Virus record (IMG/VR): IMGVR_UViG_3300014050_000138
Location: 1 to 23,810 of that record
DNA length: 23,810 nt
DNA from: a virus
Direction: 5' to 3' (one strand)
Under the pieces are notes generated by a model that saw nothing but the letters and a program-made list of their open reading frames with translations, did no database searches and was not told where the DNA came from. Of this stretch, positions 1 through 23,344 are shown in pieces. Within the stretch, counting starts at the first letter, position 1, and every line of letters begins with the position of its first letter. Position numbers and translations under genes: made by a program.

Positions 1-88
1 TGGCAAACCAAAACCAGGTAAAATGAAAAAAGCCAAATTAAAAGAAATAATAAAAGGCTATGTTAAAGAAGCAATTCAACGAATCTAA
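1..88 (+). CDS. C-terminal end of a gene cut by the window edge, with leader-like helix
   Basis: A frame open from base 2 runs to a TAA at 86-88. It reads GKPKPGK followed by MKKAKLKEIIKGYVKEAIQR and one Ile. Either this is the C-terminus of a gene starting before the window, or a 21-residue reading frame starts at the ATG at 23. The segment after Met matches the amphipathic leader seen at the start of many proteins in this window (compare the genes at 2662 and 15194). Its last 29 bases overlap, in another frame, the next gene, which carries a second leader of the same type. I cannot assign a function. The side-by-side leaders may reflect recombination between modular genes or an old frameshift. 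Confidence 0.5.
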   Translation, partial: GKPKPGKMKKAKLKEIIKGYVKEAIQRI

Positions 89-605
89 ATTAAAAAAATT
101 AATAAAAGGATGGATATTAGAAGAATTAAATCAATCCCATAGACTCGAAGAAGAATACTTTGATATAAATGAAATAAAAATAGATCCTCTAAACTCATAT
201 GAATATAAAGAAACCAATTTTCTCCAAGGGAAAGGAAATAATAAAGCGTGGGAATTTGAAGATAGATGTGGTAATTTAATATATGCTGTTTACAATCCTA
301 ATATAAATGAATTTAAAACAGGCTTTAAAATAGACGGAGTAGATACACTCATATTTCAACCCGAAAGATTTCCTTTACTTATAGATAAAATTAAACCCTG
401 CCCTGACGATAAAAAAATAGGAACTATATATAAAATTTTAATCCAAGAAATAATACCACAATTTCTATTATTAACTAAACCCAACAAACTATATTTTAAT
501 CCTGTTTCCACTACCCGAGATAGATTAGTTAAAATTATAATAGACAAAATAATAAAACAATACCCCCAATTAACCCCAAAAGGAAATTACCTAATTAACA
601 TATAA
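60..605 (+). CDS. Hypothetical phage protein with leader-like N-terminus
   Basis: A 181-residue protein of unknown function. Residues 2-6 (LKKQF) match the start region of the next gene. Residues 9-23 (SKLKKLIKGWILEEL) form a basic amphipathic helix of the leader type repeated across the window, with ILE|E and, at 37-39, INE|I as possible prohead-protease sites. The rest is a compact globular domain with alternating hydrophobic strands and a C-terminal part containing STTRDRLVKIII and ending NYLINI. The start ATG overlaps the preceding frame; AAAAGG lies only three bases upstream, too close for a good ribosome binding site, so the true start is uncertain. One base separates its stop from the next ATG, so the two are probably co-translated. 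I infer a small virion-internal or accessory protein, with low certainty. Confidence 0.7.
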   Translation: MLKKQFNESKLKKLIKGWILEELNQSHRLEEEYFDINEIKIDPLNSYEYKETNFLQGKGNNKAWEFEDRCGNLIYAVYNPNINEFKTGFKIDGVDTLIFQPERFPLLIDKIKPCPDDKKIGTIYKILIQEIIPQFLLLTKPNKLYFNPVSTTRDRLVKIIIDKIIKQYPQLTPKGNYLINI

Positions 606-606
606 T

Positions 607-1185
607 ATGGATAAAAATTCAGTTTTAAAAAAACAATTCAAAGAGCGTGATGTACAACGTCTCCGTAATGTTATAACTAAACAACACGGAAGTAAAAGCA
701 CACTTGGAGTAGGTTATACTAAAATTCAAGAAACCCACAACGAAGGAGACATATGGGAAGAAGATGGCAGACAATGGACTATTAAAAATGGGATAAAACA
801 AAATATCACCAAACTAGATAATGCTAAAAAATCGGTTTTATTTCCGTTATTTTGCCCGTCCTGCCACAAAACCATGAAACCCCATTTAGATAAAAAATGG
901 TATTATTTATTTAAACGTTGTTTTAATTGTCAAGTAACATTTGAAGCCGAAATACGCCGAAAAGGACTATGGGATGAATATGAAAAAACCATGTTCAATT
1001 CAGATATTGAAGGCATAAAACAAGAGTTCCAAATATGGATTGATGACCAAATACAAAATGAATCAAATCAATCGTATGTAACCGAAGCTGGAGATGTAGA
1101 AAAATGGACAGGTTCATCTAAAAATAAATTACTTGAAACCAAAGAAGAGGGTCTTAAATATCTTGATGGTTTAAAAAAAGAATAA
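607..1185 (+). CDS. Zinc-ribbon phage protein
   Basis: A 192-residue protein with a four-cysteine zinc-ribbon: CPSC at residues 83-86 and CFNC at 105-108, separated by a basic aromatic stretch. The N-terminal part (LKKQFKERDVQRLRN, then GVGYTK and GDIWEEDGRQWTIKNG) matches from memory a conserved hypothetical family of marine T4-like phages. The C-terminal third is acidic and helical. Metal binding by the four cysteines is the only function the sequence supports; whether it binds nucleic acid or protein is not visible. It starts one base after the preceding gene and ends directly at the TATTTATAA motif that precedes the next gene. It lacks the amphipathic leader seen in many neighbours. Confidence 0.8.
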   Translation: MDKNSVLKKQFKERDVQRLRNVITKQHGSKSTLGVGYTKIQETHNEGDIWEEDGRQWTIKNGIKQNITKLDNAKKSVLFPLFCPSCHKTMKPHLDKKWYYLFKRCFNCQVTFEAEIRRKGLWDEYEKTMFNSDIEGIKQEFQIWIDDQIQNESNQSYVTEAGDVEKWTGSSKNKLLETKEEGLKYLDGLKKE

Positions 1186-1194
1186 TATTTATAA
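1186..1194 (+). promoter_or_regulatory. TATTTATAA promoter-like motif
   Basis: TATTTATAA lies in the gap after the stop codon, with 18 bases between it and the ATG at 1213. The sequence here also contains TATAAATA (1190-1197), the exact T4 late-promoter consensus. It is one of the best-spaced members of a repeated motif in this window. Confidence 0.55.
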
Positions 1195-1212
1195 ATATAA
1201 ATCTAAATAAAA

Positions 1213-2625
1213 ATGGAAGATCTACAAAAAATTAAAGAATTTTTCTCTAAACCCTTGAAAGAAACTGCCTTTAAAAAAGGTGATAAAATAACTTATTTAG
1301 GACATCCTGGTGTAATTAAAGCTGTCAATACAGAACCGACAGGTGATATTACTTATACTGTATCATATGATAAAGGCCAAGGTAAAACTACGGCATCAAA
1401 TATTTCTAACAAAGGTGGAGAAATTAAAATGGCTGAAGCTATTACTACTGCTTATGAAGGTAAAAAAGAAACAGGTGTTGACATGGTTAAAAAGCGATTA
1501 GATGCTTTAGGTGTTAAATACGAAATGTCAAAAACTGATAAAGTAAGACCATTTAAAGTAATTTACAGACCAGTTAACAAATCAGATGAATTTTATGATA
1601 AATTTGAAGATATTGTTGATTTATTTAATTTAAAAGGTGTTGTAAAAACATCAATGAATGAAGCTTTAATGTTAGATAAATATGAAGTTGATTTTTTTCA
1701 TACTAGAGCTAACGTATATGCTAATATAGAAATACCTAGTAAAAATCCAACATTTGAAGATAATATTCAAATAAAAGGAACAGGTAAAACTGAAGAAGAA
1801 GCATTTGAAGATTTAAAACGAAATTACGAAAATTATAAAAAAACAGGAATACATGAAGCCAAATCAGAATTATATATGATTTCTAAAAGTGGTTCTAAAT
1901 TAAACCCTTATTATGTTTTAGAAAAAACAGATGGTTCTAAACAAATAGACATGATGTTTACTTCCCCTGAAGAAGCCAAAAAATATGCGACAAAGAAAAA
2001 CCTAAAACTATCCTCTAAACCAGGATATAATATGAATGAAGCTAAATCAGAAGATGCCGTTGATGCCATTACAATGGATATTCCTTTATTCCTTCGTATG
2101 TTAGAATATTCAAGAGAAGATGCCTCTCAAGACATGGATTTACATGACGTTACCGAAAAAGCAAATACTTTAGGTAAAGAAAGAGGCACATTAACAATGG
2201 ACGATTACGACGCTATTGTAGGTGCTGCTGAAGAAATTGATGAAACAGAATTAACTGAAGCATATGTTCCTTCAAACATTAAAGAATTTGCTAAAAGAAA
2301 AGGTATATCTTCTTTAGTTAATAAAGTAGCTGGTTGGGCTGAAAAAGTAGGTGCTAGAATTACTGGTGGGACTGCTATTGGTAAAGATTATAATACATTA
2401 ATATTAGACATGGGTTACCAAACCGCTGATATCTACATTAATATAGAAGATGGAACCATTGAATTATATGGAGAACCTGCAGATAGCTTCCCTCAGTTCC
2501 AAAAAGCATTTATGGACAAAGTAACTAGAGATGAAATAGAAAAAGATGAAAACCAATTCCGTCGTGAACAAGGTTTAGAAGAAACTTTAGTAAAAAAAGT
2601 TATGGAAAGACTTCGTAAGTCTTAA
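1213..2625 (+). CDS. Mosaic protein with KOW-like module and regular xE|A boundaries; candidate polyprotein
   Basis: A 470-residue protein built of short modules. Residues 21-66 are a KOW/SH3-like beta segment (FKKGDKITYLGHPGVIKAV). Later modules include a fold around 83-148, one around 155-212, one around 219-270, a helical one at 277-345 (MDIPLFLRMLEYSRED, DLHDVTEKA, LTMDDYDAIVG) and a C-terminal domain at 350-470. Between them sit MAE75|A, MNE150|A, IHE215|A, MNE276|A and LTE349|A, giving pieces of about 75, 75, 65, 61, 73 and 121 residues. T4 gp21 protease cuts after (L/I)-x-E, and a gp21-like protease is encoded in this window, so I infer a head polyprotein cut into small domains. The Met variants depart from the T4 consensus. 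It stands alone after its own promoter-like motif. Confidence 0.75.
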   Translation: MEDLQKIKEFFSKPLKETAFKKGDKITYLGHPGVIKAVNTEPTGDITYTVSYDKGQGKTTASNISNKGGEIKMAEAITTAYEGKKETGVDMVKKRLDALGVKYEMSKTDKVRPFKVIYRPVNKSDEFYDKFEDIVDLFNLKGVVKTSMNEALMLDKYEVDFFHTRANVYANIEIPSKNPTFEDNIQIKGTGKTEEEAFEDLKRNYENYKKTGIHEAKSELYMISKSGSKLNPYYVLEKTDGSKQIDMMFTSPEEAKKYATKKNLKLSSKPGYNMNEAKSEDAVDAITMDIPLFLRMLEYSREDASQDMDLHDVTEKANTLGKERGTLTMDDYDAIVGAAEEIDETELTEAYVPSNIKEFAKRKGISSLVNKVAGWAEKVGARITGGTAIGKDYNTLILDMGYQTADIYINIEDGTIELYGEPADSFPQFQKAFMDKVTRDEIEKDENQFRREQGLEETLVKKVMERLRKS

Positions 2626-2632
2626 TTTTACA

Positions 2633-2641
2633 TATTTATAA
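2633..2641 (+). promoter_or_regulatory. TATTTATAA promoter-like motif
   Basis: TATTTATAA with 20 bases to the ATG at 2662. It is intergenic, and no recognisable -35 element lies upstream. Confidence 0.5.
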
Positions 2642-2661
2642 ACACACTAAATAATAGAATA

Positions 2662-3294
2662 ATGAAAAAATCCGATCTTAAAGAGCTAATCCGTAACAGT
2701 ATTATCAAAGAACTAGAATATCAAGATGATGACGCGGCTTTAGGTAATATGTATTCTCCTTTATATGAAAAAAAGAAAAATGAAGAAGAGGATGTAGAAA
2801 TCACAGCTGATGAAACTGATACAACTGAAGAACCATCAACTGAAGAACCCACAACAGATACTCCATCTTCAGAAGATTCCAATTTATCAGATTCAGATCA
2901 AGAATATTTAAATTCTCTTGAAGATTTAAAAAATAAAGCTAAAGAAATGGGTGACGAAAAACTCGAAAACCAAATCGACAATACAATTACATATTTTACT
3001 CGTCAACACGTTGTTAAAGAAGGCGATACAGATTATGATAGAAAGAGACTTCAAAAAGAAATAAGCACCTATGGCCCCGAAGAAATGGATAATTTAGTTA
3101 ACCGTAACGATGTTAAAACTCTTATTTCATCTACTCGAAATATTATTAAAACACTTAAAGACGAAGGATTTGATGAAGATGATGTTTATAACTTTATTGT
3201 AGATAAAATTACAACTTTAGACGATGGTAGTGAATCATTAATGGAAAATTATGAACTTCGTCGTTTACAAGTAATAGCAGGCATAATAAAATAA
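2662..3294 (+). CDS. Leader-bearing acidic protein
   Basis: A 210-residue protein opening with MKKSDLKELIRNSIIKELE, the clearest form of the shared amphipathic leader. Residues 40-80 are a disordered acidic Thr/Glu/Pro-rich linker (TTEEPSTEEPTTDTPSSED). Residues 83-190 are helical and charged. The C-terminus, ENYELRRLQVIAGIIK, resembles the RRMQKLAGII stretch at the start of the gene at 12339, so it looks like a mobile short module. Function is unknown. The leader suggests packaging inside the head by analogy with T4 internal proteins. It ends ten bases before the next gene, which opens with VNE|A, a junction that in sister proteins lies inside one chain; the two may be a split polyprotein. 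Confidence 0.75.
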   Translation: MKKSDLKELIRNSIIKELEYQDDDAALGNMYSPLYEKKKNEEEDVEITADETDTTEEPSTEEPTTDTPSSEDSNLSDSDQEYLNSLEDLKNKAKEMGDEKLENQIDNTITYFTRQHVVKEGDTDYDRKRLQKEISTYGPEEMDNLVNRNDVKTLISSTRNIIKTLKDEGFDEDDVYNFIVDKITTLDDGSESLMENYELRRLQVIAGIIK

Positions 3295-3304
3295 TTTTTG
3301 TATT

Positions 3305-3916
3305 ATGGTAAACGAAGCTAGTTTAACTAAAGCCGAACTCGCAAAACGCGAAGATATCATTAAATCAATGAAAGGCAACAAGCGTAAATTAGTCCAAAAA
3401 TATGGGGCTGACGCTGAAAAAGTTATGTATGGTAGAGCAACTAATATAGCTAAAAAAGTAGCAGAAAATACTATGGAAACAGATAAACTTAAAGAAGCAG
3501 TTAAGGCTGCCTTAATGAACCCCGAAAAAGCTGATCTAAATAAAGATGGTAAACTTTCATCTTATGAAGAAAAAAGAGGAAGGGCTATTGAAAAATCTAT
3601 GCAAAAAGAAGACCTAGACTTAGGCCACGAAGATAACGAACCCCACATGGTTAAAGCCGATTTATACAAAATTGGAAAATACGCTATGGAACTTTATCAA
3701 ATGGTAGATCAATTTGAAGGACAAGGTGAAGTTGATTTTCCGGCTTGGTGGCAATCTAAAATTACTAATGCTGCCTCTATGATCAGCAGCGCAAAACATT
3801 ACCTTGAATTTGAATTAAAAGAACCGACTATTGATGCTATGGTGGATGTTGCCCAAAATACAGGAGCAATTGATGAAATTAAAGCCAAAGTATTAGCTAG
3901 GTTAACTAAAAAATAA
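3305..3916 (+). CDS. Hypothetical phage protein with EF-hand-like loop
   Basis: A 203-residue protein of at least three parts. Residues 6-57 (LTKAELAKREDIIKSMKG, then ADAEKVMYGRATNIAKK) match from memory a small helical domain common in marine T4-like phages. Residues 77-88 form a canonical EF-hand or dockerin-type calcium loop: D77, N79, D81, K83, S85 and E88. Residues 115-170 (YKIGKYAMELYQM, FPAWWQSKITNAASMISSAKHYLE) are a helical domain also recalled from phage structural or hypothetical proteins. It begins MVNE|A, a possible protease site right after the start. Its stop overlaps the next start by one base (TAATG). Calcium binding is inferred from the loop only. Confidence 0.75.
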   Translation: MVNEASLTKAELAKREDIIKSMKGNKRKLVQKYGADAEKVMYGRATNIAKKVAENTMETDKLKEAVKAALMNPEKADLNKDGKLSSYEEKRGRAIEKSMQKEDLDLGHEDNEPHMVKADLYKIGKYAMELYQMVDQFEGQGEVDFPAWWQSKITNAASMISSAKHYLEFELKEPTIDAMVDVAQNTGAIDEIKAKVLARLTKK

Positions 3917-4374
3917 TGAACCGCGACGAACTTATAATCAAAATCAAATCAATAGCAAAGCAATCCCTTGCTAATCGCCAAAAGGCTGACATAGCTGCTG
4001 TTGAATACGATGAATTAACTAAATTCCCAGAACTAAAAAAAGTAATAGTAGATTTACTTACTTCGGATTTTGATTATTTCTTAGCATCTATTGATTGGGT
4101 AGCCCCAAAACCAACTACGTTCCGTATTAATTTAAAAAATGGAACAAGTTTTTATCTTATATTTCATCCACGTTCTTGGATAGCACAAGTTGAAGGTAAA
4201 AAATATTATTTACTTAATTTAAACGAAGAAGAATCAGCAACTAATGCTATTGCCCGTTTATTAAGAATAGGTGCTAAAGTTGAACCTAAAGAAGAAGCAG
4301 ATACTGAAATGCCTGCTATTGAAACCCCCGCTGAAGAACCAGCAGCTGAAGAAAAAGTACCTGCAGAAGCATAA
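3916..4374 (+). CDS. Conserved hypothetical phage protein with acidic tail
   Basis: A 152-residue protein. Residues 1-115 form a compact alpha-beta domain: helices at the start, then strands around TTFRINLKNGTSFYLIFH and SWIAQVEGKKYYLLNL, then a helix ending NAIARLLRIG. Residues 118-152 are a disordered acidic Pro/Ala/Glu tail (PAIETPAEEPAAEEKVPAE). I do not recognise a named family. The start overlaps the previous stop (TAATG), and thirteen bases separate it from the next gene, so it belongs to the same translational run. It has no leader-type N-terminus; MNRDELIIKIKSIAKQSL is helical but does not fit the motif well. Confidence 0.75.
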   Translation: MNRDELIIKIKSIAKQSLANRQKADIAAVEYDELTKFPELKKVIVDLLTSDFDYFLASIDWVAPKPTTFRINLKNGTSFYLIFHPRSWIAQVEGKKYYLLNLNEEESATNAIARLLRIGAKVEPKEEADTEMPAIETPAEEPAAEEKVPAEA

Positions 4375-4387
4375 TAATTAATAAAGT

Positions 4388-5059
4388 ATGATTACATTAG
4401 AAACATATGGAGACTTAAAAAAGCTTATAGATAATATTAAGTTAAAACAAAAAGGACAAAAAATAATTTCTAAAGGAAAAGAATTTGCATTAGATCAAAT
4501 ATTAGGATTTATCCCGGGAGCGTCTAATGCTAAAACTCTTTATAGTTTTATTCAAACAGCTATTTCTAAACCCGATAGTAAAAAAACAAATACATGGCTT
4601 GATAAATTAGATATAGATGATGAAGTGTCTGCTATTGTAGACGATACTGTTGAAAATGGGTTTATGCAAGCTATGGCTAATATTATACAAAACGAACCAG
4701 ATAATAAACCATTAGAAGATGATTTTAATATGAATCAAAAGATGGTAGATTATTTAAGTAAAAAATATGATGAAAGAACTATAACTGGAATTAAAGAAAA
4801 CATGAAAACACAACAACTACGCAAACTCATTAGAGAAATTATTTTATCTGAAATACAAACACCTTCTGATGTAGTTAATCTTACTAAAATAGTTAAAAGT
4901 AATACTTCTCTAATAAATGCTCTACAAAAAGTTGATCAGCCTACTGAGGTTACATCTTTTTTAGAATACATATTAAGTACTATTAATCCCAAAATTACTG
5001 GAGTAAATACTTCTGCTCTTAAAACTGCAATAGATAATCGTTTTACTAAAAAAATATAA
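4388..5059 (+). CDS. Two-part hypothetical protein with an internal leader
   Basis: A 223-residue protein that reads like two genes fused in frame. Residues 1-138 are a domain with a hydrophobic stretch (FALDQILGFIPGASNAKTLYSF), an acidic segment (LDIDDEVSAIVDDTVENGF) and FNMNQKMVDYLSKKY. At residue 139 a second start-like point occurs: MKTQQLRKLIREIILSEIQ, the same amphipathic leader found at other N-termini, beginning at an ATG at 4802. Residues 158-223 are a small helical domain (LINALQKVDQPTEVTSFLEYIL). The second part may be made separately from the internal ATG, or released by cleavage near IRE150 or LSE155. Function is unknown. Its stop overlaps the next start (TAATG). Confidence 0.75.
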   Translation: MITLETYGDLKKLIDNIKLKQKGQKIISKGKEFALDQILGFIPGASNAKTLYSFIQTAISKPDSKKTNTWLDKLDIDDEVSAIVDDTVENGFMQAMANIIQNEPDNKPLEDDFNMNQKMVDYLSKKYDERTITGIKENMKTQQLRKLIREIILSEIQTPSDVVNLTKIVKSNTSLINALQKVDQPTEVTSFLEYILSTINPKITGVNTSALKTAIDNRFTKKI

Positions 5060-6273
5060 TGGACGCATACGATATATTTTTTAAGAAATTTGCTTATAAA
5101 TTTCCAAAAGGATATCCTGACATGAATAATGAGCAGGATATTTTATTGTTGGAGAATTTATTACAAGGATTAGGTATTGATTTTAAATTTGATAGTTTAA
5201 TATATGAAGTTAGCGATTCCCAAGTTACAAAAAATACAAGAAAAGCTATAGATTATATTATTAAAAACACAAACAATGGCTTTAAAACTCAATCCGATCC
5301 TAAACGTTTAGGTAACCCCAATAAAACATTATCAGATGATTTCAAAGTAATAATCAATCAATTATTTAAACCTGATGATATAACAATCCACGGGCCCCGT
5401 TCAGGACCTAATCCATCAGGTAAATACGATATGTATGAATTTGAGACTGATGATTTTGGTCTTGTTCGTATTGTTTTAAGTGGAGGAGGGAATGCGGGTG
5501 AACAATACGAAACCGAATTTTATAATGTAGCTAAAGAATTAGCAGGTGAGCCCAATGAAGCTTTACCTAAAAATCTTCAAACACTTTATAAAGCTTTAGA
5601 TATTGATAATTCAGAATTAACTAGCGATAATATTAAATCCTTTAGAACAGGAGATACTAAACGAAATTTAGATCCAAAAGGTCCTCAAGATATAGGTAAA
5701 ACTATTTCTGATTTAGATATTAACTATGGGGGTAAAACCTATTATATTTCATTAAAAAACAAACAAGGTAGTGGAATATACAGCGGTGCTAATATACCTT
5801 GGATATATGAAAAGAATGGAAAAGTAATATACGATCCTTCTAAATTTGATCCATCATCCGGGAATGGTATTTTATTTGAAATGTTTAATATTGATTCTAA
5901 AAAAATAGCTAAGGGATTAAACGATTATATTAATCAAACAGGCAAATCAGCAGATTTTCAAAATATTGATATAGATACTAATAAATTTAAAAAACTTTTA
6001 GCTTCATCTTTAGGTTACGGGTATTATTATGTAAGAGAATATGGTAAAGGAGATGTTAAAGTAATCCCAATTTTAACCTCTAAAGACTCACTAAATGCTA
6101 TTGGTAATATTACAAACGCCCAAATCAAATACCCTAGTAAAGATACTAAACAAGTTACAATTAAAATAGACACAGACAGCAAACTATTTGGTCCCTCCCA
6201 ATATGTAGTTGCTATTAGAAACACTTCAGGAAAAATACTACCATTATCTTTGAGAATCAGCAAAACAAAGTAA
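5059..6273 (+). CDS. Probable PD-(D/E)XK-type nuclease-like phage protein
   Basis: A 404-residue protein. Around residues 142-162 a Gly-rich turn leads to a helix with acidic residues (GGGNAGEQYETEFYNVAKEL). At 217-233 comes SDLDINYGGKTYYISLK, where D218 or D220 followed by a beta strand with S-x-K at 231-233 resembles the core of the restriction-endonuclease-like (PD-(D/E)XK) fold: helix Glu, strand Asp, then [E/S]xK on the next strand. The rest, including 260-340, fits a large alpha-beta protein. I recall related proteins in marine T4-like phages, unnamed. The fold assignment is inferred from motif spacing and could be wrong. It starts at a TAATG overlap with the preceding gene and ends at a promoter-like motif. 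Confidence 0.7.
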   Translation: MDAYDIFFKKFAYKFPKGYPDMNNEQDILLLENLLQGLGIDFKFDSLIYEVSDSQVTKNTRKAIDYIIKNTNNGFKTQSDPKRLGNPNKTLSDDFKVIINQLFKPDDITIHGPRSGPNPSGKYDMYEFETDDFGLVRIVLSGGGNAGEQYETEFYNVAKELAGEPNEALPKNLQTLYKALDIDNSELTSDNIKSFRTGDTKRNLDPKGPQDIGKTISDLDINYGGKTYYISLKNKQGSGIYSGANIPWIYEKNGKVIYDPSKFDPSSGNGILFEMFNIDSKKIAKGLNDYINQTGKSADFQNIDIDTNKFKKLLASSLGYGYYYVREYGKGDVKVIPILTSKDSLNAIGNITNAQIKYPSKDTKQVTIKIDTDSKLFGPSQYVVAIRNTSGKILPLSLRISKTK

Positions 6274-6282
6274 TATTTATAA
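6274..6282 (+). promoter_or_regulatory. TATTTATAA motif abutting a start codon
   Basis: TATTTATAA with only two bases to the ATG at 6285. An identical arrangement (TAATATTTATAATTATGAA) occurs at 21503-21521. If this is a promoter, the transcript would be leaderless or start inside the start codon; otherwise the motif has another role here. Confidence 0.35.
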
Positions 6283-6284
6283 TT

Positions 6285-6971
6285 ATGAATACACTACGCA
6301 ACCTCATCAAAGAATCTCTCCAAGGATACAACTTAAAGAAAAAATCATGTTCTTGTGGTTGTAACACTTGTGAAGATAAACGTATATTAGCGCCTATACT
6401 CAACGAATCAATCGCACCGCGCGAAATATTGTCTGAGGGACTTAAATACCATATAGACAATAACAAACCGCTTACTGAACATGTATATCGTGCGGGTTCG
6501 CAAAATTATTTTAATTTATGGTCTGAGGCAAGAGCATTATATTCTCGCGGTATTATAGACATCAAAAACCAAGACGATCTTGAAATACTAACCGAAACAC
6601 AATTGGGTGAGTTTGGGATGTATGAAGATAAAAAGGTTCCATTAGATTTTATAATGGAAGAAGTTGAATTAGAAGAAGCAGATAAAAAAAAGAAAACACC
6701 TCCAATTGGCAAACCAAAACGCGATTCATCGGGGGGAAAAGCTTATAAAGTATATGTTAGAGACCCTAAAACTAAAAAAATTAAAACAGTTAGATTTGGT
6801 AGTGGTGGTTTAAAAGCAAAAATTAATAATTCTAAAGCAAGAGCGGCTTTTGCAAAACGTCATAAATGTGGCCAAGGAGAAGAAAAAACAAGCCCCAAAT
6901 GGTGGAGTTGTAGGCTTCCAAGATTTGCTAAACTTTTAGGATTAAAAGGTTCTTATTCTGGTTTTTGGTAG
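6285..6971 (+). CDS. Leader-bearing mosaic protein, basic Cys/Trp C-terminal domain
   Basis: A 228-residue protein. It opens MNTLRNLIKE10|S, a leader with an (L/I)-x-E end. Residues 21-29 are CSCGCNTC-like (SCSCGCNTC), probably metal binding. LNE41|S and LSE51|G bracket a short linker. Residues 66-125 are a helical domain (HVYRAGSQNYFNLWSEARALYSRG). LEE131|A leads into a strongly basic domain at 133-228, recalled from marine phage proteins: GKPKRDSSGGKAYKVYVRD, TVRFGSGGLKAKI, AAFAKRHKCG, WWSCRLPRFAKLLG. The order leader, Cys cluster, helical domain, basic domain, each joined by x-E sites, fits a processed internal head protein; the basic end could bind DNA. Both roles are inferred. A homing endonuclease gene follows. 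Confidence 0.75.
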   Translation: MNTLRNLIKESLQGYNLKKKSCSCGCNTCEDKRILAPILNESIAPREILSEGLKYHIDNNKPLTEHVYRAGSQNYFNLWSEARALYSRGIIDIKNQDDLEILTETQLGEFGMYEDKKVPLDFIMEEVELEEADKKKKTPPIGKPKRDSSGGKAYKVYVRDPKTKKIKTVRFGSGGLKAKINNSKARAAFAKRHKCGQGEEKTSPKWWSCRLPRFAKLLGLKGSYSGFW

Positions 6972-6990
6972 GAAATATATCTTCTATCTA

Positions 6991-6999
6991 TATTTATAA
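6991..6999 (+). promoter_or_regulatory. TATTTATAA promoter-like motif before homing endonuclease
   Basis: TATTTATAA four bases before the ATG at 7004. It helps set that ATG, not the TTG at 6965, as the start. Confidence 0.4.
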
Positions 7000-7003
7000 T
7001 AAA

Positions 7004-7711
7004 ATGGCTTATGTTTATAGACATATTAGGTTAGATAAAAATGAACCTTTTTATATAGGGATTGGGAACGATAATTCTTATAAAAGGGCTTATAATAAAT
7101 ATGATAGAAATTATATTTGGAAAAGTATAGTTAATAAAACTAAGTATAAAGTTGAAATAATATTAGATGGCTTATCTTGGGAAAAAGCATGTGAAAAAGA
7201 AAAAGAATTTATATCATTGTATGGTAGAAAAGATTTAGAAAAAGGACCCTTAGTAAATCTTACATCTGGGGGTGATGGGGTTATAGATAGAAACCCTCAA
7301 ACCCAGCACTATATTAATTGCATTAAATATAAACCTATTCTCCAATATGATTTAAAAGGAAATTTTATTAAAAGATGGAATAGTGGAGTAGAATTAAAAA
7401 AATATTATACATCTACCCAAGTAAGTAATATACAAATGTGTTGTAGAGAAGAATATAATATTGTTCAAGGATATTATTGGTATTATGAAGAAAATTTTAA
7501 AAAAGAAAATATTGAAAAAAGTCAATCTTTTAAAAGTAAAAGAAAAAAACAAATTTTTGTAGAATCATTAGACAAAACTTTTAATAAAGTCTATTATGGG
7601 TTAGAAGAATGTGTAAAAGCTTTAAACCTTAATGTTTGTGAAGAAGTTATTAGAAAAAAATGTATAAATAACCAAGAGTATAAGGGGTATAAATTTCAAT
7701 ACTTACTATAA
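7004..7711 (+). CDS. GIY-YIG homing endonuclease
   Basis: A 235-residue free-standing endonuclease of the GIY-YIG family, which cuts DNA to spread its own gene. The catalytic domain is at the N-terminus: YVYRHIRLDKNEPFYIGIG, where YVY and YIG are the two signature strands, followed by RAYNKY with the expected Arg and a later Glu in EKEKEFISLYG. Residues after about 105 hold DNA-binding NUMOD1-like segments (PILQYDLKGNFIKRWNSGVE and a second near IFVESLDKTF). The ATG at 7004 is preferred over an upstream in-frame TTG because it begins right at the domain. Codon use is even more AT-rich than its neighbours, as expected of a mobile gene. It sits between two leader-bearing genes, and its stop overlaps the next start (TAATG). 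Confidence 0.85.
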   Translation: MAYVYRHIRLDKNEPFYIGIGNDNSYKRAYNKYDRNYIWKSIVNKTKYKVEIILDGLSWEKACEKEKEFISLYGRKDLEKGPLVNLTSGGDGVIDRNPQTQHYINCIKYKPILQYDLKGNFIKRWNSGVELKKYYTSTQVSNIQMCCREEYNIVQGYYWYYEENFKKENIEKSQSFKSKRKKQIFVESLDKTFNKVYYGLEECVKALNLNVCEEVIRKKCINNQEYKGYKFQYLL

Positions 7712-9288
7712 TGAAACTTACCGACATACTCAAGCAAATAATCCAAGAAAAAAAAGCCAAACGCGACAGATGCTTGCGTATTGCAGACCGCAAATTTAAC
7801 AAACCATCAGCATATAAATCAGGTGCTGTAGTTAGATGCCGCCAAGGCAAGATATGGAAAGGATTAAAAGAAAATCATAAGGCATATGCTAAAGAAAGAT
7901 ATGAAGCCGATTTAATAGAAGGGAAAGTAGGAAATTTATACCATTCAACTAACGCTACAGCAGCCACCAATATATTAAAAGAAGGATACATAAACCCAGC
8001 TAATATAAATTTAAAACAATATATAGGAACTTCAAATCCACCTTGGTGGTATTCAGATGAATTTGGTGAACCTCAGCCTTTATATGGAGATTTTATATAT
8101 GCTGCTTCAAATTATAAAGAAGGATTTTTTGGAGTATCAAATCCTGAAGTTACTTTTATAATAGATGGGGATAAAGTAAAGAATAGTGGAATTGATATAT
8201 ATAAAGCTCCTGAAAGTATGGAAAAAGGAGTATGTTTAATTCAAGGTTCTGTTTCTTTAAAATTTATAAACAAAATAATAATAAATGGAGATCTTATAGA
8301 CGAAGAAGATAAAATTAATTTAATATTAATTATAAAAAATAAAAAAATAAAATACGATACTTTATTAAAAGAAGATAACCAACCATCAGAAGGATCATAC
8401 CAACAAGCTTTAAAAGATATTAAACCTATAATACCTGTTTTATCACATAACCTTATTCATCAACAAAGTTTAGAACATAATGAAGAAAATATGGTTAAAT
8501 TAAATCAAAAAATATTTGATTTAGTTAAAAAGGGAGATGGTACTATACTTGATAGGTTATGGGATTTAGCAGGAAATTCATTATTAAAAAATGCTATAAA
8601 CATTATTACCTTTTACCATAAAAGTAATTTAAACGAATCCAAACAAGTAGGCCCGTTATATCATTTTACAGATTTTTTTTCTCTCAAAAAGATTTTAACT
8701 AGTAATACTATGATTGGATCCTATGGCAATCAAGATATAAAAGGTCGATATATATCGACAACACGTGATAAAAATTTTTATAAATCTGATCCTAACCTTG
8801 GCGTTGAGGATCTGCAAGCCGCTTTAATATTTGATGGAAATAAATTAAGTAATAAATATAAAATTAAACCATATGCTTATGAACCATATAGAGACCTTAA
8901 TCGAAGTGGTGCCGAAGCAGAAGAACTAATCATACTTCCAGGCAGAGATTTACCTAATATTAAATCATACTTATCAGGTGTAATATTATTAAAGCCTAAT
9001 AAAGCAATAGAATCTTTCCTAAAAAAAGAAAATATACCTTATAATGTAGATTTAAGCGAAGCTAAAAAAGAAACACTCCGCACCTGGTTCAAACGCAAAG
9101 GAGCACCGGGTAAAACAGGAGGTTGGGTTGATTGTAATTCACCAATCCGCAAAGACGGAAAAATAACAGGATACAAACCATGTGGGAGACAAAAAGGCGA
9201 AATACGTTCAAAATATCCTTCATGTCGTCCAACACCATCTAAATGTAAAGATCCTGGTAAAGGTAAAAAATGGGGAAAAACAAAATGA
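7711..9288 (+). CDS. Leader-bearing multidomain protein with two ADP-ribosyltransferase-like domains; candidate polyprotein
   Basis: A 525-residue chain of four modules. Residues 1-13 are a leader (MKLTDILKQIIQE). Residues 17-52 are a small basic Cys domain (RDRCLRIADRKF, KSGAVVRCRQGKIWKG). After LIE70|G comes a domain starting LYHSTNATAATNILKEG; after LNE309|S a second starts LYHFTDFFSLKKIL, with YISTTRDKNF (347-356) and AEAEELI (401-407). LYH[ST]T plus a late E-x-E recalls the ADP-ribosyltransferase fold. After LSE450|A comes a Cys-rich basic domain (GGWVDCNSP, GYKPCGRQKGE, YPSCRPTPSKC). T4 packages and ejects an ADP-ribosyltransferase (Alt), so an ejected effector is a fair inference. The fold is judged by eye, and the first domain lacks a clear catalytic Glu. 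Confidence 0.7.
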   Translation: MKLTDILKQIIQEKKAKRDRCLRIADRKFNKPSAYKSGAVVRCRQGKIWKGLKENHKAYAKERYEADLIEGKVGNLYHSTNATAATNILKEGYINPANINLKQYIGTSNPPWWYSDEFGEPQPLYGDFIYAASNYKEGFFGVSNPEVTFIIDGDKVKNSGIDIYKAPESMEKGVCLIQGSVSLKFINKIIINGDLIDEEDKINLILIIKNKKIKYDTLLKEDNQPSEGSYQQALKDIKPIIPVLSHNLIHQQSLEHNEENMVKLNQKIFDLVKKGDGTILDRLWDLAGNSLLKNAINIITFYHKSNLNESKQVGPLYHFTDFFSLKKILTSNTMIGSYGNQDIKGRYISTTRDKNFYKSDPNLGVEDLQAALIFDGNKLSNKYKIKPYAYEPYRDLNRSGAEAEELIILPGRDLPNIKSYLSGVILLKPNKAIESFLKKENIPYNVDLSEAKKETLRTWFKRKGAPGKTGGWVDCNSPIRKDGKITGYKPCGRQKGEIRSKYPSCRPTPSKCKDPGKGKKWGKTK

Positions 9289-9710
9289 TAAAACTACTTG
9301 ACATATTAAGCGAAGCCGAGCTAAACCAATGCCCGGCTCCAACCCAAAACATAAAGCTAAATCTGCAAAACAGACAAAAAGCTATAAACGAATACGAGTA
9401 TGGGCCGTTAAATCCAAATGAACCCAACGAAAAATTTTGGCAAGCCAAGGTTGATATGTGGAAACTCGATTCCATAGAAGAAGCTAAAACTTCCCGCTGT
9501 GGTAATTGTGCTGCTTTTGATATTACAACTAAAACATTAGATTGCATTGCTAAAGGAATAGGCAATGATGAAGGCACAGAAGATCCGTTTGATGTAATTA
9601 AAGCTGGTAAGTTAGGATATTGTAGATTTTTAAAATTCAAATGCGCTGCTGCTCGAACTTGCGATGCTTGGGTGGTTGGAGGTCCTATTACAGATGACAA
9701 AGCCATATAA
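9285..9710 (+). CDS. Leader-bearing Cys-rich conserved phage protein
   Basis: A 141-residue protein. The ATG at 9285 is chosen because it overlaps the previous stop as ATGA and because the chain then opens MIKLLDILSE|AEL, a leader ending in a clean LSE|A site; an in-frame ATG at 9270 adds five residues. The body is a conserved family recalled from marine T4-like phages: CPAPTQNIKLNLQNRQKAI, YGPLNPNEPNEKFW, then SRCGNCAAFD, LDCIAKG, LGYCRFLKFKC and RTCDAWVVGGP. At least seven cysteines in the second half suggest a metal or iron-sulphur site. The role is unknown; the leader suggests a place in the head. It overlaps the cupin gene by 17 bases. Confidence 0.8.
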   Translation: MIKLLDILSEAELNQCPAPTQNIKLNLQNRQKAINEYEYGPLNPNEPNEKFWQAKVDMWKLDSIEEAKTSRCGNCAAFDITTKTLDCIAKGIGNDEGTEDPFDVIKAGKLGYCRFLKFKCAAARTCDAWVVGGPITDDKAI

Positions 9711-9966
9711 AGATATAGAAATCACAGACAGCTATATTATTCGTGAATTTGACGAAAATATAGATTCTATTGAATTAAAATGGCATCGGGATCTAAAATC
9801 TCGTACAGTAACTGTGTTAGAAGGACAAGGATGGAAATTCCAAAAAGAAAACGAACTTCCTTTGGAATTAAATAAAGGAGATGTTATATTTATTCAAGCT
9901 AAAGAATGGCATAGAATATTTATAGGTGAAACAAATTTAAGGTTAAAAATTGAAGAATATAACTAA
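9694..9966 (+). CDS. Small cupin-fold protein
   Basis: A 90-residue protein with the look of a single cupin barrel: ELKWHRDLKSRTVTVLEGQGWKFQ, then PLELNKGDVIFIQAKEWHRI and a final strand LRLKIEEY. The two WHR histidines lie where the metal-binding histidines of the two cupin motifs usually are. Similar short cupins occur in T4-like cyanophages as hypotheticals. The substrate cannot be read. The ATG at 9694 is preferred to the one ten codons earlier because it keeps the overlap with the previous gene short and starts at MTKPYKDIEITDSY. The gene overlaps the downstream endonuclease frame by 17 bases. Confidence 0.75.
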   Translation: MTKPYKDIEITDSYIIREFDENIDSIELKWHRDLKSRTVTVLEGQGWKFQKENELPLELNKGDVIFIQAKEWHRIFIGETNLRLKIEEYN

Positions 9967-10582
9967 AATATATCTTGTTGAAAATTGTTATGGTGATCCT
10001 AATAAAGTTTATATTGGTAAGACTATAAATTCAAGAGAATCTAATCATAAAAAAACGTATGGTACCCAAATTAAATATACTTTTATAGATGAAATAAACT
10101 CATTGAATAGAAAAGATTGGGAACCATTAGAAACATATTGGATAGAGCAGTTTAAGGCTTGGGGATTTGAGATAGTAAATGTAAGAAAAAAGGGAGGAAT
10201 GGGTCCTGAATTCTTATCTGAGGAAGCTAGAAGTAAGAAATCTAAAGCTATGATAGGAAAAGCCCATTCAAAAGAAACTTGTTTAAAAATAAAACAAGCA
10301 TTACAAGGAAAAAAAAGAGATAAAAAAATTGGAGAAAAAATATCAAATTCAAAAAAAGGTAAGTCTATTAATTTAATAGTAACTTCTCAACATAAAAATA
10401 AATTAAAAGAAATAAAATCTATTCCTATTACCCAATATGATTTACAAGGAAATTTTATTAAAGAATGGGATTCAACTCAAGAGGCTGCTTTTTTTTATAA
10501 TGTTCAAAAAGGACATATATGTAACGCTTTAAATGGAAGATCCAAATCAAGTAAAGGATTTATATGGAAATATAAAAATTAA
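9950..10582 (+). CDS. GIY-YIG homing endonuclease with TTG start
   Basis: A 210-residue endonuclease. The GIY-YIG strands are IYLVEN and VYIGKT at residues 7-22, followed by Arg in NSRESNHK and Glu in EPLETYWIEQF. NUMOD3-like repeats follow (SEEARSKKSKAMIGKAHS, IGEKISNSKKGKS) and a C-terminal NUMOD1-like segment (PITQYDLQGNFIKEWDSTQE, then KGFIWKYKN). No ATG precedes the catalytic domain, so the TTG at 9950 inside the cupin gene is the only plausible start; translation probably couples to the cupin stop at 9964-9966. The C-terminal segment closely resembles those of the endonucleases at 7004 and 13015, pointing to a family of related mobile genes in this genome. Confidence 0.8.
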   Translation: MKNITKIYLVENCYGDPNKVYIGKTINSRESNHKKTYGTQIKYTFIDEINSLNRKDWEPLETYWIEQFKAWGFEIVNVRKKGGMGPEFLSEEARSKKSKAMIGKAHSKETCLKIKQALQGKKRDKKIGEKISNSKKGKSINLIVTSQHKNKLKEIKSIPITQYDLQGNFIKEWDSTQEAAFFYNVQKGHICNALNGRSKSSKGFIWKYKN

Positions 10583-12338: not shown

Positions 12339-12629
12339 ATGAAACAAATATTATCTGAAGAATTTCGTAGAATGCAGAAACTTGCTGGTATTATTGCTGA
12401 AAACCAAAATAGTTTTCCTAGTGAAGATGAAATTAAAGCAAAAAGTGAAATGGGAGGTTGGGTAACATTATCAAAAAATGGAATCAATTATGACATTAAC
12501 TACACAGTAAGTTCTGAAAGTGATGATGAAATGTCATTTGGTGTCTACCCTTCAGGAGGTAGCGAAGATGAAGAACAAATAGCAGAGTTTTATACATATG
12601 ATGAATTAGTAGATTGGTTTAATAGGTAG
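12339..12629 (+). CDS. Small protein with RRMQKLAGII N-terminal module
   Basis: A 96-residue protein. It opens MKQILSEEFRRMQKLAGIIAEN, an alternative leader type with LSE|E and IAE|N as possible protease sites; the RR-x-Q-x-x-AGII core recurs at the C-terminus of the gene at 2662. Residues 38-96 are a small acidic alpha-beta domain (GGWVTLSKNGINYDINYTV, FGVYPSGG, FYTYDELVDWF). Function is unknown. Another frame opens at 12613 and continues for 87 codons with no start codon, so this gene may be the front part of a longer ancestral protein. It has its own promoter-like motif. Confidence 0.7.
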   Translation: MKQILSEEFRRMQKLAGIIAENQNSFPSEDEIKAKSEMGGWVTLSKNGINYDINYTVSSESDDEMSFGVYPSGGSEDEEQIAEFYTYDELVDWFNR

Positions 12630-12876
12630 TAAATTTACTATTGGTGATGAATTAACAACTTATGGGGGTGGTGAAAAAGTTACAGTAATAGGTATAAAGC
12701 CCAATTTAGCTGCTGCTTTAGCAGATACTGAAAATTCTGAAGCTGTTAAAGAACTTAAAAAAGATTTACGTAAAAACCTTATAAGTATAGAAGATAGAAA
12801 TAAACCTTTTTATTTAGTAACATCTGAATCGTTTCCTATTAATAAATATTATATTGAATCTGAATTGGAATTATAA
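12613..12876 (+). pseudogene. Start-less reading frame with KOW-like segment, probable gene remnant
   Basis: A frame open from 12613 to the TAA at 12874-12876 with no ATG, GTG or TTG near its front. It reads KFTIGDELTTYGGGEKVTVIG, then AAALADTENSEAVKELKKD and a C-terminal PFYLVTSESFPINKYYIE. The first part resembles the KOW-like segments in the genes at 1213 (residue 21) and 21516 (residue 283). It lies in the +1 frame relative to the preceding gene and overlaps its last codons, so either a frameshift joins them or this is the tail of a decayed gene. I favour decay, because another fragment follows at once. Confidence 0.55.
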
Positions 12877-12878
12877 CA

Positions 12879-12986
12879 AAATATCCGAATGTACACTTTG
12901 TTGGCGACGCTCTTTCAGCAAGGGGTATAACTGTTAGTGGAGCTCATGGTATTTATGTGGCTTCTTCGATTTTACAAAATTCTTAA
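12879..12986 (+). pseudogene. 3' remnant of a FAD-dependent dehydrogenase gene
   Basis: A 35-codon in-frame tail ending at TAA 12984-12986. It reads KYPNVHFVGDALSARGITVS then GAHGIYVASSI. It aligns without gaps to the end of the intact flavoprotein (KYPNIHFVGDSLSSRGIAVS, then AAQGVYCVKNF). The differences include GAHGIYVASS, which is nearer to what I recall of cellular COG2509 proteins, so it may derive from a related gene and not from a recent copy. Stop codons lie directly upstream in this frame, so it is not a functional gene. Confidence 0.75.
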
Positions 12987-12987
12987 A

Positions 12988-13014
12988 TATTTATAATCGA
13001 ACAAAAACTCGATT
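12988..13014 (+). promoter_or_regulatory. TATTTATAA motif with hairpin before homing endonuclease start
   Basis: TATTTATAA at 12988-12996, 18 bases before the ATG at 13015. AATCGA (12995-13000) and TCGATT (13009-13014) form a six-pair stem ending directly at the ATG. Hairpins near the starts of T4 homing endonuclease genes are known to restrict translation to late transcripts; a similar role is inferred here. Confidence 0.45.
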
Positions 13015-13962
13015 ATGAATTACCAAAGAATATATAACCAAATAGTTGAACGTGCCCAAAATAGAACTTTAGATGGTTATAAAGAAAAACACCATATAAT
13101 CCCAAAATGTATTGGTGGGAATAATGATAAAGAAAATATAGTAAAATTAACAGCAAAGGAACATTTTTTATGTCATATATTACTTTGTGAAATTTATCCT
13201 AAAAATATAAAATTATATCAAGCTTTATGGTTAATGTCTACTAACAAAAATAAAAAAAAAGGGAAAAGATATAAAGTATCATCTAGAGTTTATGAAAGAA
13301 TTAAAATAGAAGCTTCTAAAATATACAAAAACCGAACACAAACTAAAGAAGAAAAACAAAAAAGAGTTAATTCTCAAATTTTAACTTGGGATAAAAAACG
13401 CAAAGAACAAGGTTTAATAATTAATAAAAATTATATTTTTGATTTTATAAAATCATACCCCAATATTAAATTGACTGAAAATAATAAACATTGTATAAAC
13501 TATTGTTATAATGATAATATTAATATTAAAAATATTATTTGTTTGTGTGGCAATGGAATAAAAAGGTTTCAAAACTATACTCAAGGTTATAAACAATATT
13601 GTAGTCAAAGATGTGCTAATTTATATAATAAAGAAAAATCTTTGCAAACTAAAGAAAATAATGGTTTATGGGATAATTCTAAAGAAAGATTACGTAAAAA
13701 AGAAATAGAAAATTTATCTAAAATAGAAATTGAACAACTTAGAAGAAAACGAATTAGTGTTAAACAAAAAGGCAAAACTAAATTAGGAAACAGTCATAGT
13801 AAACCCATTATACAATTCGATACCCAAGAAAATCTTATCCAAGAGTGGCCAAGCATTAGGCAAGCTGGTTTCAGTTTAGTAGGGAATCAAGGTGAACCTA
13901 TTAGAAAATGTCTTAAAGGTTTACAAAAAACAGCTTATGGGTACAAATGGAAATATAAATAA
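13015..13962 (+). CDS. HNH homing endonuclease
   Basis: A 315-residue endonuclease of the HNH family. The catalytic motif is at residues 22-60: YKEKHHIIPKCIGGNNDKEN, then IVKLTAKEHFLCHILL, with the paired His, the Asn and the later His expected of the fold. A four-cysteine finger lies in the middle (CLCGNG, YKQYCSQRCANLY). The C-terminus holds a NUMOD1-like DNA-binding segment (PIIQFDTQENLIQEWPS, then YGYKWKYK), very like those of the two GIY-YIG genes. It sits exactly between a FAD-gene remnant and the second copy of the 80-residue gene, where the intact copy has only nine bases, so the insertion point is readable. Confidence 0.85.
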   Translation: MNYQRIYNQIVERAQNRTLDGYKEKHHIIPKCIGGNNDKENIVKLTAKEHFLCHILLCEIYPKNIKLYQALWLMSTNKNKKKGKRYKVSSRVYERIKIEASKIYKNRTQTKEEKQKRVNSQILTWDKKRKEQGLIINKNYIFDFIKSYPNIKLTENNKHCINYCYNDNINIKNIICLCGNGIKRFQNYTQGYKQYCSQRCANLYNKEKSLQTKENNGLWDNSKERLRKKEIENLSKIEIEQLRRKRISVKQKGKTKLGNSHSKPIIQFDTQENLIQEWPSIRQAGFSLVGNQGEPIRKCLKGLQKTAYGYKWKYK

Positions 13963-13990
13963 AACTTGGTTTTTTAAACTTTCTTTTTTA

Positions 13991-13999
13991 CATTTATAT
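13991..13999 (+). promoter_or_regulatory. CATTTATAT, weak promoter-like variant
   Basis: CATTTATAT, 12 bases before the ATG at 14012, after a T-rich stretch. It is a poor match and is listed because of its position. Confidence 0.25.
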
Positions 14000-14011
14000 T
14001 AAAATAATAAT

Positions 14012-14254
14012 ATGGAAAAATGGGAACCAACTAAAAAACTCACTAAAACAGACGGAACAATAATGTACGTATGGGACAGTAAATTACACAACTGGGACGG
14101 ACCAGCACTAATACCCGAAGGTAATATGCGAAAAAGAGAATATTATCTTTATGGAAATAAAAAAACAGAAGAACAATGGAAAGAAGCCCGTAAAGATAGG
14201 GAAGGTCTTCCTTGGTATAAAAAAGCCTCAATCACAGGAACCAGTAGATATTAG
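14012..14254 (+). CDS. 80-residue DGPA/YYLYG protein, copy 2
   Basis: Paralogue of the gene at 12041, the same length with no gaps. By eye eight residues differ (for example L6P, A18M, I49N, P50K and P72A), while the KLHNWDGPALIPEG, REYYLYG and TEEQWKEARKD cores are unchanged. Synonymous changes are frequent, so the duplication is old and both copies look selected. Function is unknown. Upstream is the HNH endonuclease in place of the FAD gene. A T-rich run follows the stop but without the hairpin seen after copy 1. Confidence 0.8.
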   Translation: MEKWEPTKKLTKTDGTIMYVWDSKLHNWDGPALIPEGNMRKREYYLYGNKKTEEQWKEARKDREGLPWYKKASITGTSRY

Positions 14255-14271
14255 TTTTTATTTTTTTTGCA

Positions 14272-14280
14272 TATTTATAA
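14272..14280 (+). promoter_or_regulatory. TATTTATAA promoter-like motif
   Basis: TATTTATAA, 28 bases before the ATG at 14309, directly after a T-run. Confidence 0.5.
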
Positions 14281-14308
14281 CAAACAAAAACATTTAAATT
14301 TTAAAAAT

Positions 14309-14548
14309 ATGAAAGTATCACAATTAAGACAACTAATTCACGAAGAAGTTAGTAGCATGTTAAATGAAGTACCTAAAAAACCAAACGAAGTACCTAATTT
14401 GTTTTTAACACAAACAGGAACTGATAGTAAGAAGTTAAAAGAGATTAAACAAAATATATATGATTACATTAAAGGCTTAAATAATCTAGATGAATTAGAT
14501 GATCTTATTTTAGACCTTTGTCAACAATATAAGAGAGAAACACGCTAA
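14309..14548 (+). CDS. Small leader-bearing protein
   Basis: A 79-residue protein beginning MKVSQLRQLIHEEVSSMLNE, a full-length version of the shared leader with IHE|E and LNE|V. After a Pro-rich spacer with a short repeat (NEVPKKPNEVPN) comes a single helical domain (KKLKEIKQNIYDYIKGL, LDELDDLILDLCQQY). The ATG is preferred over an in-frame TTG 14 codons upstream because that TTG lies before the promoter-like motif and the leader fits at the ATG. If the leader is removed, a mature protein of about 60 residues remains. The role is unknown; it is a candidate internal head protein. A strong terminator follows. Confidence 0.7.
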   Translation: MKVSQLRQLIHEEVSSMLNEVPKKPNEVPNLFLTQTGTDSKKLKEIKQNIYDYIKGLNNLDELDDLILDLCQQYKRETR

Positions 14549-14577
14549 ACATAAACAAACAAAAATATTTTAAAGTT

Positions 14578-14605
14578 AAGCTTGGGAAACCAAGCTTTCT
14601 TTTTT
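14578..14605 (+). terminator. Rho-independent terminator
   Basis: AAGCTTGG (14578-14585) pairs perfectly with CCAAGCTT (14590-14597) around a GAAA tetraloop, followed by a T-rich tract. Confidence 0.85.
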
Positions 14606-14633
14606 ACATTCACGCAAATAAAATAATATAGTT

Positions 14634-15164: not shown

Positions 15165-15173
15165 TATGTATAA
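15165..15173 (+). promoter_or_regulatory. TATGTATAA promoter-like motif
   Basis: TATGTATAA directly after the stop codon, 20 bases before the ATG at 15194, the same spacing class as the better copies. Confidence 0.5.
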
Positions 15174-15193
15174 CAAATAATATATATAAAACT

Positions 15194-22741: not shown

Positions 22742-23344
22742 ATGAAACAAGTACTCATAGAAACAATCCCGTTTAGCATATCTCCTGTTCAATTAACAGA
22801 AGGTATGAGAGCTCCATCAGGTAATCCTATGGTAGAAGGGATATTAGCTACAGCCGAAGTAAAAAATGGAAACGGCAGATACTATTCAAAGGATTTATGG
22901 GAACGTGAAATAGATAAATACCAAGAAGTTGTTAAACAAAATAGAGCAACCGGTGAACTTGATCACCCCGAGAGCTCAATTATAAACCTAAAAAATGTAT
23001 CCCACATCATTCGAGAATTATGGTGGAATGGAGATAAAGTATTAGGTAAAATAGAAATTCTCCCAACAACATCAGGTAACATCCTTAAAGCTTTAATCGA
23101 CAACAGAGTTCAAGTTGGTGTTTCAAGTAGAGGAATGGGCTCGCTAAAACAAATGGGAGAAACATTAGAAGTACAAGACGACTTTGAACTACTTTGTTGG
23201 GATTTTGTATCAACCCCATCCAACCCCGGATCATATATGCAATTAGTAAAAGAAGGTAAAGAAAATAACATCAATCCTTACTCTAAAGCAAACAGTATTC
23301 TCACAGATATTCTTTGCGCTAACGGAACTTGCCCTCTTTTTTAA
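22742..23344 (+). CDS. gp21: Prohead core protease (gp21-like)
   Basis: A 200-residue serine protease of the T4 gp21 family, which matures the prohead by cutting scaffold, capsid and internal proteins after (L/I)-x-E and then itself. The catalytic His is in GELDHPES (H75) and the Ser in VGVSSRGMGS (S128 or S129), with conserved GRYYSKDLWEREID before and FVSTPSNPGSY after. Length is close to T4 gp21 (212). QLTE20|G near the N-terminus is a possible self-cleavage site. The ATG at 22742 is chosen over an upstream TTG lying inside the previous gene. A double-hairpin terminator follows. It is the enzyme on which the polyprotein hypothesis for this window depends. Confidence 0.93.
   Translation: MKQVLIETIPFSISPVQLTEGMRAPSGNPMVEGILATAEVKNGNGRYYSKDLWEREIDKYQEVVKQNRATGELDHPESSIINLKNVSHIIRELWWNGDKVLGKIEILPTTSGNILKALIDNRVQVGVSSRGMGSLKQMGETLEVQDDFELLCWDFVSTPSNPGSYMQLVKEGKENNINPYSKANSILTDILCANGTCPLF

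Follow-up and report, generated by a model that had tools for sequence, protein, structure and literature searches.

In T4-like phages, few parts of the virion are as poorly understood as the internal head proteins. The few that have been solved (IPI, Alt) counter restriction or seize transcription. The function of the T4 capsid targeting sequence (CTS), which brings proteins into the head, is documented (PMC9026906, PMC9958956). In SPN3US and phiKZ, head precursors are cut after x-x-E by the phages' own prohead proteases; propeptides can hold multiple copies of the motif, some of which were shown to be cut (gp53), and the identified cuts, self-cleavage aside, all remove N-terminal propeptides (PMC10052503). 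A different kind of chain is formed by the polyvalent proteins of phages and conjugative elements, which carry 2-15 shuffled domains each and have been proposed to be injected with the DNA and processed (Iyer et al. 2017, PMC5512222). Finally, the region between gp16 and gp17 of cyanophages has been noted as variable (Sullivan et al. 2010, PMC3037559).

Here we describe a gene that encodes a leader followed by a shuffled series of small modules, or beads, with a head-protease-like motif at their borders. It lies in a stretch of viral DNA of 23,810 nucleotides (the window) that, from its terminase, gp20-type portal and gp21-type protease genes, is a fragment of a T4-like phage. The original prediction, made from the sequence by eye, took this gene for a beads-on-a-string precursor of small head-internal proteins, and comparison with relatives largely supports it, with cleavage and packaging as the inferred part. 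We consider it likely that the string is a modular precursor of small internal head proteins that would be co-packaged by means of its leader and cut by the gp21-type protease.

Architecture of the string protein

The ORF at 1213-2625 (plus strand) encodes 470 amino acids. All five xE↓A sites that had been claimed for it are present in the translation, each followed by Ala: KMAE75↓A, SMNE150↓A, GIHE215↓A, NMNE276↓A and ELTE349↓A (the arrow marks the proposed cut). These sites had been thought to divide the protein into six small domains. Six beads did emerge from the comparison with homologues, but the border between the first two was misplaced, as homologues favour AYE82↓G (broken in nine of 15) over E75 (broken in two of seven). 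Homologues also revealed additional seams at the end of the leader (LKE17↓T), at a second position in M5 (IDE344↓T) and before a short exchangeable tail (LEE457↓T). Given the seams at E17 and E457, the string consists of a leader, six beads and a tail (Table 1).

Table 1. Features of the string gene and of the head genes in the window (coordinates in nucleotides of the window)
Feature	Coordinates	Strand	Remarks
Leader peptide, residues 1-17 (MEDLQKIKEFFSKPLKE↓)	1213..1263	+	capsid-targeting-sequence-like
Bead M1, residues 18-75	1264..1437	+	same bead in L003, L025, L039
Spacer AITTAYE, residues 76-82	1438..1458	+	between possible sites E75↓A and E82↓G
Bead M2, residues 83-150	1459..1662	+	ends at SMNE150↓A
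Bead M3, residues 151-215	1663..1857	+
Bead M4, residues 216-276	1858..2040	+
Bead M5, residues 277-349	2041..2259	+	near-universal three-helix bead and disordered tail
Bead M6, residues 350-457	2260..2583	+
C-terminal tail TLVKKVMERLRKS and stop, residues 458-470	2584..2625	+	exchangeable
Terminase	16263-17834
gp20-type portal	17856-19745		PF07230, 1e-66
Prohead core protease, gp21 type (S77)	22742..23344	+	presumed processing enzyme; Pfam Peptidase_S77 PF03420 6.8e-29; PHROG 207 1.2e-57
gp22-like scaffold ORF	starts 23531		separate from the string gene

Searches of the protein against Pfam and PHROG placed no bead above the cut-offs, and the Pfam search found no peptidase domain. FHBP_C and Arc-like matches were weak, fell below the cut-offs and were dismissed.

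Beads recur in other orders and other genes

Relatives were gathered by scanning viral contigs with the whole protein, with alignments of M5 and M2, and with a DNA pattern of the leader. We found 42 non-redundant proteins (100-1024 aa) that begin with one leader, MKDIQKIKEFFSKPLxE↓, and then diverge. The smallest (L069, 100 aa) consists of leader, M5 and tail, and the largest (L052, 1024 aa) of about a dozen beads. The leader is the same whichever beads follow: residues M1, D3, K6, I7, F10, F11 and E17 are invariant in eight aligned leaders, and DNA homology to L001 and L005 stops where it ends (ORF nt 51-55).

When bead families were defined by cutting the relatives at their seams, the 42 leader-bearing proteins yielded 31 recurrent families in 40 distinct orders. 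Left neighbours of M5 in this set are of 12 kinds and those of M2 of seven; the family of M2 (03) comprises 19 members, with seven different left and ten different right neighbours. There is a loose grammar to these orders: some beads are usually early, M5 is found mid-string, and M6 and a basic CPAGKAY bead come late. A second copy of the leader stands within the L001 chain (IQIKEFFSKPLEE↓A), which looks like a fusion of two proteins that each had a leader.

The beads of the window protein also travel outside this set. M3 is 93% identical in DNA to L035/L036 from ORF nt 434 to 657, with seams at 450 and 645; the protein there lacks the window-type leader and has M5 immediately after M3. M4 is 92% identical in DNA to L012 from ORF nt 638 to 842, with seams at 645 and 828, and also occurs in L015, within a different gene. 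M6 is common to L001, L005, L025 and others, and lies in different genes in L089, L043 and L048. Even the tail is exchanged, as ORF nt 1364-1413 and the terminal stretch of the L012 gene are 100% identical, and L012 itself has no M6. M5 is the most widespread bead, encoded at 423 loci in viral contigs. Single modules thus occur in different orders, within different genes and as proteins of their own, namely L069 and L201 (69 aa), which consists of a short leader, MTTLRQLKE↓G, and M5 only. Loss of conservation at the x-E-A sites was not seen among the homologues.

A search of genome contigs for a bacterial source of M5 gave only four matches, all on metagenome-assembled contigs, and three of the four sit with phage-like string or leader-plus-bead proteins. 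Among isolates, Flavobacterium phage immuto is a relative; its gp079 (841 aa) is string-like, has similar seams and is encoded just upstream of the terminase.

Predicted structure

One check proposed with the original prediction was whether all five junctions lie in flexible linkers. In the full-length model (pTM 0.29), confident parts are found in M1, M2 and M6, and pLDDT falls below 50 at residues 76-86, 148-192, 204-239, 266-292 and 337-347. All five junctions lie in or beside such low-confidence, non-compact stretches, and no single compact fold spans them in this model. We regard this as partial support, because the alignment is thin over M3-M5, which accounts for the low confidence there and leaves the linker status of E215 and E276 weakly tested.

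M1 was modelled as a five-stranded, SH3/KOW-like unit (strands 25-73) for which Foldseek reported weak similarity to the EF-P N-domain and to chromo-like folds (E ~0.3). M6 reached a pLDDT of ~80 in the full-length model. M5 modelled alone (AlphaFold, 50 sequences) gave a confident three-helix unit with pLDDT 79, its last 10 residues below 50. It had no counterpart in the PDB, and its viral matches are uncharacterised phage proteins. Foldseek with the whole model returned no significant match.

Homology breaks coincide with the proposed cut motif

To locate exchange points we used a break score, which compares at each position the homologous proteins that stop there with those that align across it. 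This profile replaced raw BLAST HSP-end statistics, which were noisy and showed a modest excess only. At [ILMV]xE↓A the break score was 0.556, against 0.203 in a circular-shift null (sd 0.025, maximum 0.290 in 1000 shifts), and at [ILMV]xE↓S or G it was 0.538. Controls stayed low: 0.29 for hydrophobic-xE before other residues, 0.27 for [^ILMV]xE↓A, 0.05 for xD↓A and 0.29 for xK↓A. The profile peaked at offset 0. Inside beads the motif was seen zero times, against 8.7 expected by shuffling. Seam specificity therefore depends on P3 and P1', as it does at gp21 sites. By P3 residue, the scores were 0.65 for Met and 0.54, 0.48 and 0.53 for Leu, Ile and Val, so Met is as good a seam as the other three. 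As had been suggested, cutting at such sites would widen the gp21 preference to Met at P3.

Breakpoints called de novo, with no reference to the motif, were enriched 5.3-fold for EA, 14-fold for NEA and 20-fold for MNEA. About half of them had no strict motif within 10 residues, which indicates that exchange is not restricted to seams. In DNA, the homology that the window gene shares with L036 (M3), L012 (M4), L001, L003 and L005 mostly ends ~16 nt or less from seams, with 78-97% identity inside the homologous segments. The Ala codon at seams of the window lineage is unbiased (GCT 0.58 vs 0.60 background), which means that the amino acid, not the DNA, has been kept.

The leader and the head protease

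The context of the string gene is that of T4-like head genes, with portal and protease in the window and a Gp23 major capsid protein (MCP) in sister contigs. The GELDHP and VSSRG motifs of the protease line up with T4 gp21 in an alignment, and the enzyme looks catalytically intact. T4 IPII and IPIII begin MKTYQEFIAE↓A (T4 record), and the string leader is laid out in the same way. In the present family the leader end, ...KPLxE↓, is conserved and E17 is invariant, while P1' varies (T in the window). In the MCPs of sister phages, V[T/I/S/M/V]E or INE aligns to FLTE65↓A of T4 gp23. P3 is V at these sites and P1' is often S, N or T, with F in L142 and Q in L168/L169, so the match is to the general xE class and not to MNE↓A; the MCP of phage immuto has VSE↓A.

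We propose that the amphipathic leader, working like the T4 CTS, would bring all the beads into the prohead core as one chain. The gp21-type protease would next cut every hydrophobic-x-Glu↓Ala/Ser/Gly seam behind its Glu, so that the leader comes off and five or six beads, each folded on its own, are released. These would remain with the DNA inside the head and, like T4 IPs and Alt, would probably be ejected into the host, where they may act against host defences or in host take-over. Phages could swap, lose, gain and duplicate beads freely, because all bead borders have the same cut motif and an in-frame exchange at seams always yields a processable string.

Other ORFs of the window

Many ORFs at 60-9710 and 12339-15685 begin with short amphipathic leaders that end in xE (MKKSDLKELIRNSIIKELE, MKVSQLRQLIHEEVSSMLNE, MNTLRNLIKESL, MKLTDILKQIIQE), which suggests a large cluster of head-targeted proteins. 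In the ORF at 21516-22739, which lies upstream of the protease gene, we counted six strict xE↓[ASG] sites where 1.5 are expected (p = 0.002). It also has a KGD/KOW-like stretch and, internally, a peptide resembling a leader (ESKLRSLVRNLIKEELNE↓G), and is probably another string. The ORF at 7711-9288 contains Cys-rich basic stretches (RCLRIADRKFNKPSAYKSGAVVRC; WFKRKGAPGKTGGWVDC) with a close match in L073/L077; they look like beads of cyanophage strings. A peptide of the form [RK][MLW]Q.[LR]AGI(I/V) recurs at the ends of scaffold-like and bead proteins: in the window at the C-terminus of 2662-3294 and the N-terminus of 12339-12629, at the C-terminus of L161 gp067, and in L093, L094 and L021. 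This peptide may be another kind of tag for core targeting or core binding. ORFs inserted among the head genes at 6965-7711, 9950-10582 and 13015-13962 resemble homing endonucleases (by eye, of the GIY-YIG and HNH types).

A second lineage and a possible mobile bead

In other T4-like contigs, one of them 355 kb long, the strings have QGVAE↓G seams. The MCP encoded by that 355-kb contig has LAE↓S near the place equivalent to the T4 gp23 site, one residue off in the automatic alignment. Between QGVAE seams we found a 50-residue bead, GDDRTVANIKNYERELAKYKKFNANGAHDVKIKNLEKIIAxLKSKQGVAE, whose DNA is exactly 150 bp long, 95-100% identical and present in unrelated protein contexts (L171-L176, L162, L166). 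It is bounded by the repeat CAAGGTGTGGCGGA(A/G)GG, and one contig (56,956 bp) has two copies of it within 1.3 kb; judging from these sequences, the bead behaves like a mobile in-frame cassette. The seam codons of this lineage are strongly biased, with GCG at 88% of Ala codons (32 sites) vs 5% background and GGT at 96% of Gly codons vs 38%. Here the seam is kept as DNA, so that the cut motif doubles as an exchange repeat. Similar string-like ORFs are found between gp16 and gp17 in cyanophages.

These codon biases and the 150-bp cassette are what one would expect if the seams were primarily recombination joints within a multidomain chain that stays uncut, such as a polyvalent-type injected protein or a core protein. 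We hold that to be improbable, however, since the Ala codon in the window lineage is unbiased though the residue is conserved, and since two lineages with different DNA and different P2 residues converge on hydrophobic-x-E↓small. Nor would a pure DNA joint be expected to follow P3 and P1' or to be avoided inside beads. We lean slightly towards a broader form of the cleaved-string reading, in which one four-codon motif would serve both as head-protease cut site and as module-exchange joint, T4-like lineages (Flavobacterium-type, cyanophage-type, jumbo) would reassemble polyprotein arsenals of injected proteins, and single beads would move as in-frame DNA cassettes.

Some strings carry enzyme-like domains. 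Two proteins with comparable seams contain a SpoT-like HD phosphohydrolase domain (L016:3326-5872, PF13328 7e-15) and a borderline GNAT domain (L020:1311-2873), and L054:1404-2504 is the only protein showing an HEIEH zincin-like motif (by eye). All three proteins come from related phages and contain M5; their domains hint that beads can be effectors directed at the host. This bears on a further explanation, in which the string, like T4 gp22, gp67 and gp68, would serve as a disposable scaffold or core protein that gp21 cuts into pieces, and these leave the head and have no delivered function. T4 gp22 is also rich in xE sites (ten listed in 269 aa), and the string gene lies in the head-gene region, as core genes do. 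We nevertheless find this explanation unlikely: the window has a separate gp22-like scaffold ORF, strings of another lineage include the HD phosphohydrolase and borderline GNAT domains, and the beads are folded units of 60-110 residues from many unrelated families that are shuffled between phages, unlike a conserved scaffold.

The density of the motif is a weaker guide than its position. The original prediction held that this density was not simply background, citing no site in the terminase and one in the portal. The portal site exists (LIE604↓S), but the terminase contains IDE161↓A and IYE395↓G, so the argument fails as stated. The window protein by itself is only mildly unusual and thus weak evidence, with five strict [ILMV]xE↓[ASG] sites vs 1.9 expected by shuffling (p = 0.03) and seven EA dipeptides vs 3.2 expected. 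Across the family the claim holds, as 169 sites in 33 proteins vs 59 in shuffles is an excess far beyond chance, and the sites are situated at homology breakpoints. That the spacing reflects chance or composition in an ordinary E- and A-rich multidomain protein, which the p value of the single protein would allow, is refuted by the break-score analysis, in which motif and breakpoint coincide far outside the null, and is very improbable given the family-wide excess.

Comparison with known systems

If phages encode internal proteins as protease-cut strings, bead borders could be read straight from sequence, and many "hypothetical" giant ORFs upstream of terminase would become lists of discrete, testable small effectors. 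It would also explain how T4-like phages diversify their injected proteins, and would be a rare case in which protease specificity and recombination joint coincide. Within the open-access literature we came across no earlier account of a prohead protease cutting multi-bead strings, and regard the novelty as provisional.

The closest counterparts are IPI, IPII, IPIII and Alt of T4 (PMC9958956, PMC9026906), which share with the string a short N-terminal leader ending in xE and a nearby gp21-type protease gene. Like the T4 internal proteins, the beads are small, variable, folded proteins that accompany T4-type head genes. In T4 there is one protein and a single cut per leader, whereas here a single leader can precede as many as about a dozen beads, each separated from the next by a cut motif. 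The six-bead window protein differs from T4 in this respect, and the single-bead relatives L201 and L069 resemble it. The leader belongs to a different sequence family from that of T4, and we claim no homology between them.

T4 gp22, gp67 and gp68 also have many xE sites, lie in the head-gene region and are digested by gp21, but they are conserved scaffold and not a shuffled series of folded beads. The string gene has no conserved scaffold sequence and is not beside the MCP gene as gp22 is; it lies ~20 kb from the scaffold-like ORF. In SPN3US and phiKZ, the multiple motif copies are in propeptides of one mature protein and not in bead strings (PMC10052503). Large hypothetical proteins of the cyanophage gp16-gp17 region (S-SM2 SSM2_109, T4-GC 119; DSL-LC02) come nearer, as they are also encoded upstream of the terminase, have multiple beads with xE↓small seams, and share Cys-rich beads with related strings. 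Their bead set is different, however, and the papers found do not call them precursors. The polyvalent proteins have the same chain layout with shuffled domain order; Pfam and PHROG searches found no known polyvalent domain in the window protein. Their processing is assigned to zincin-like peptidases, often embedded in the chain (PMC5512222), whereas the candidate here is the head protease, with its seam motif at every bead border.
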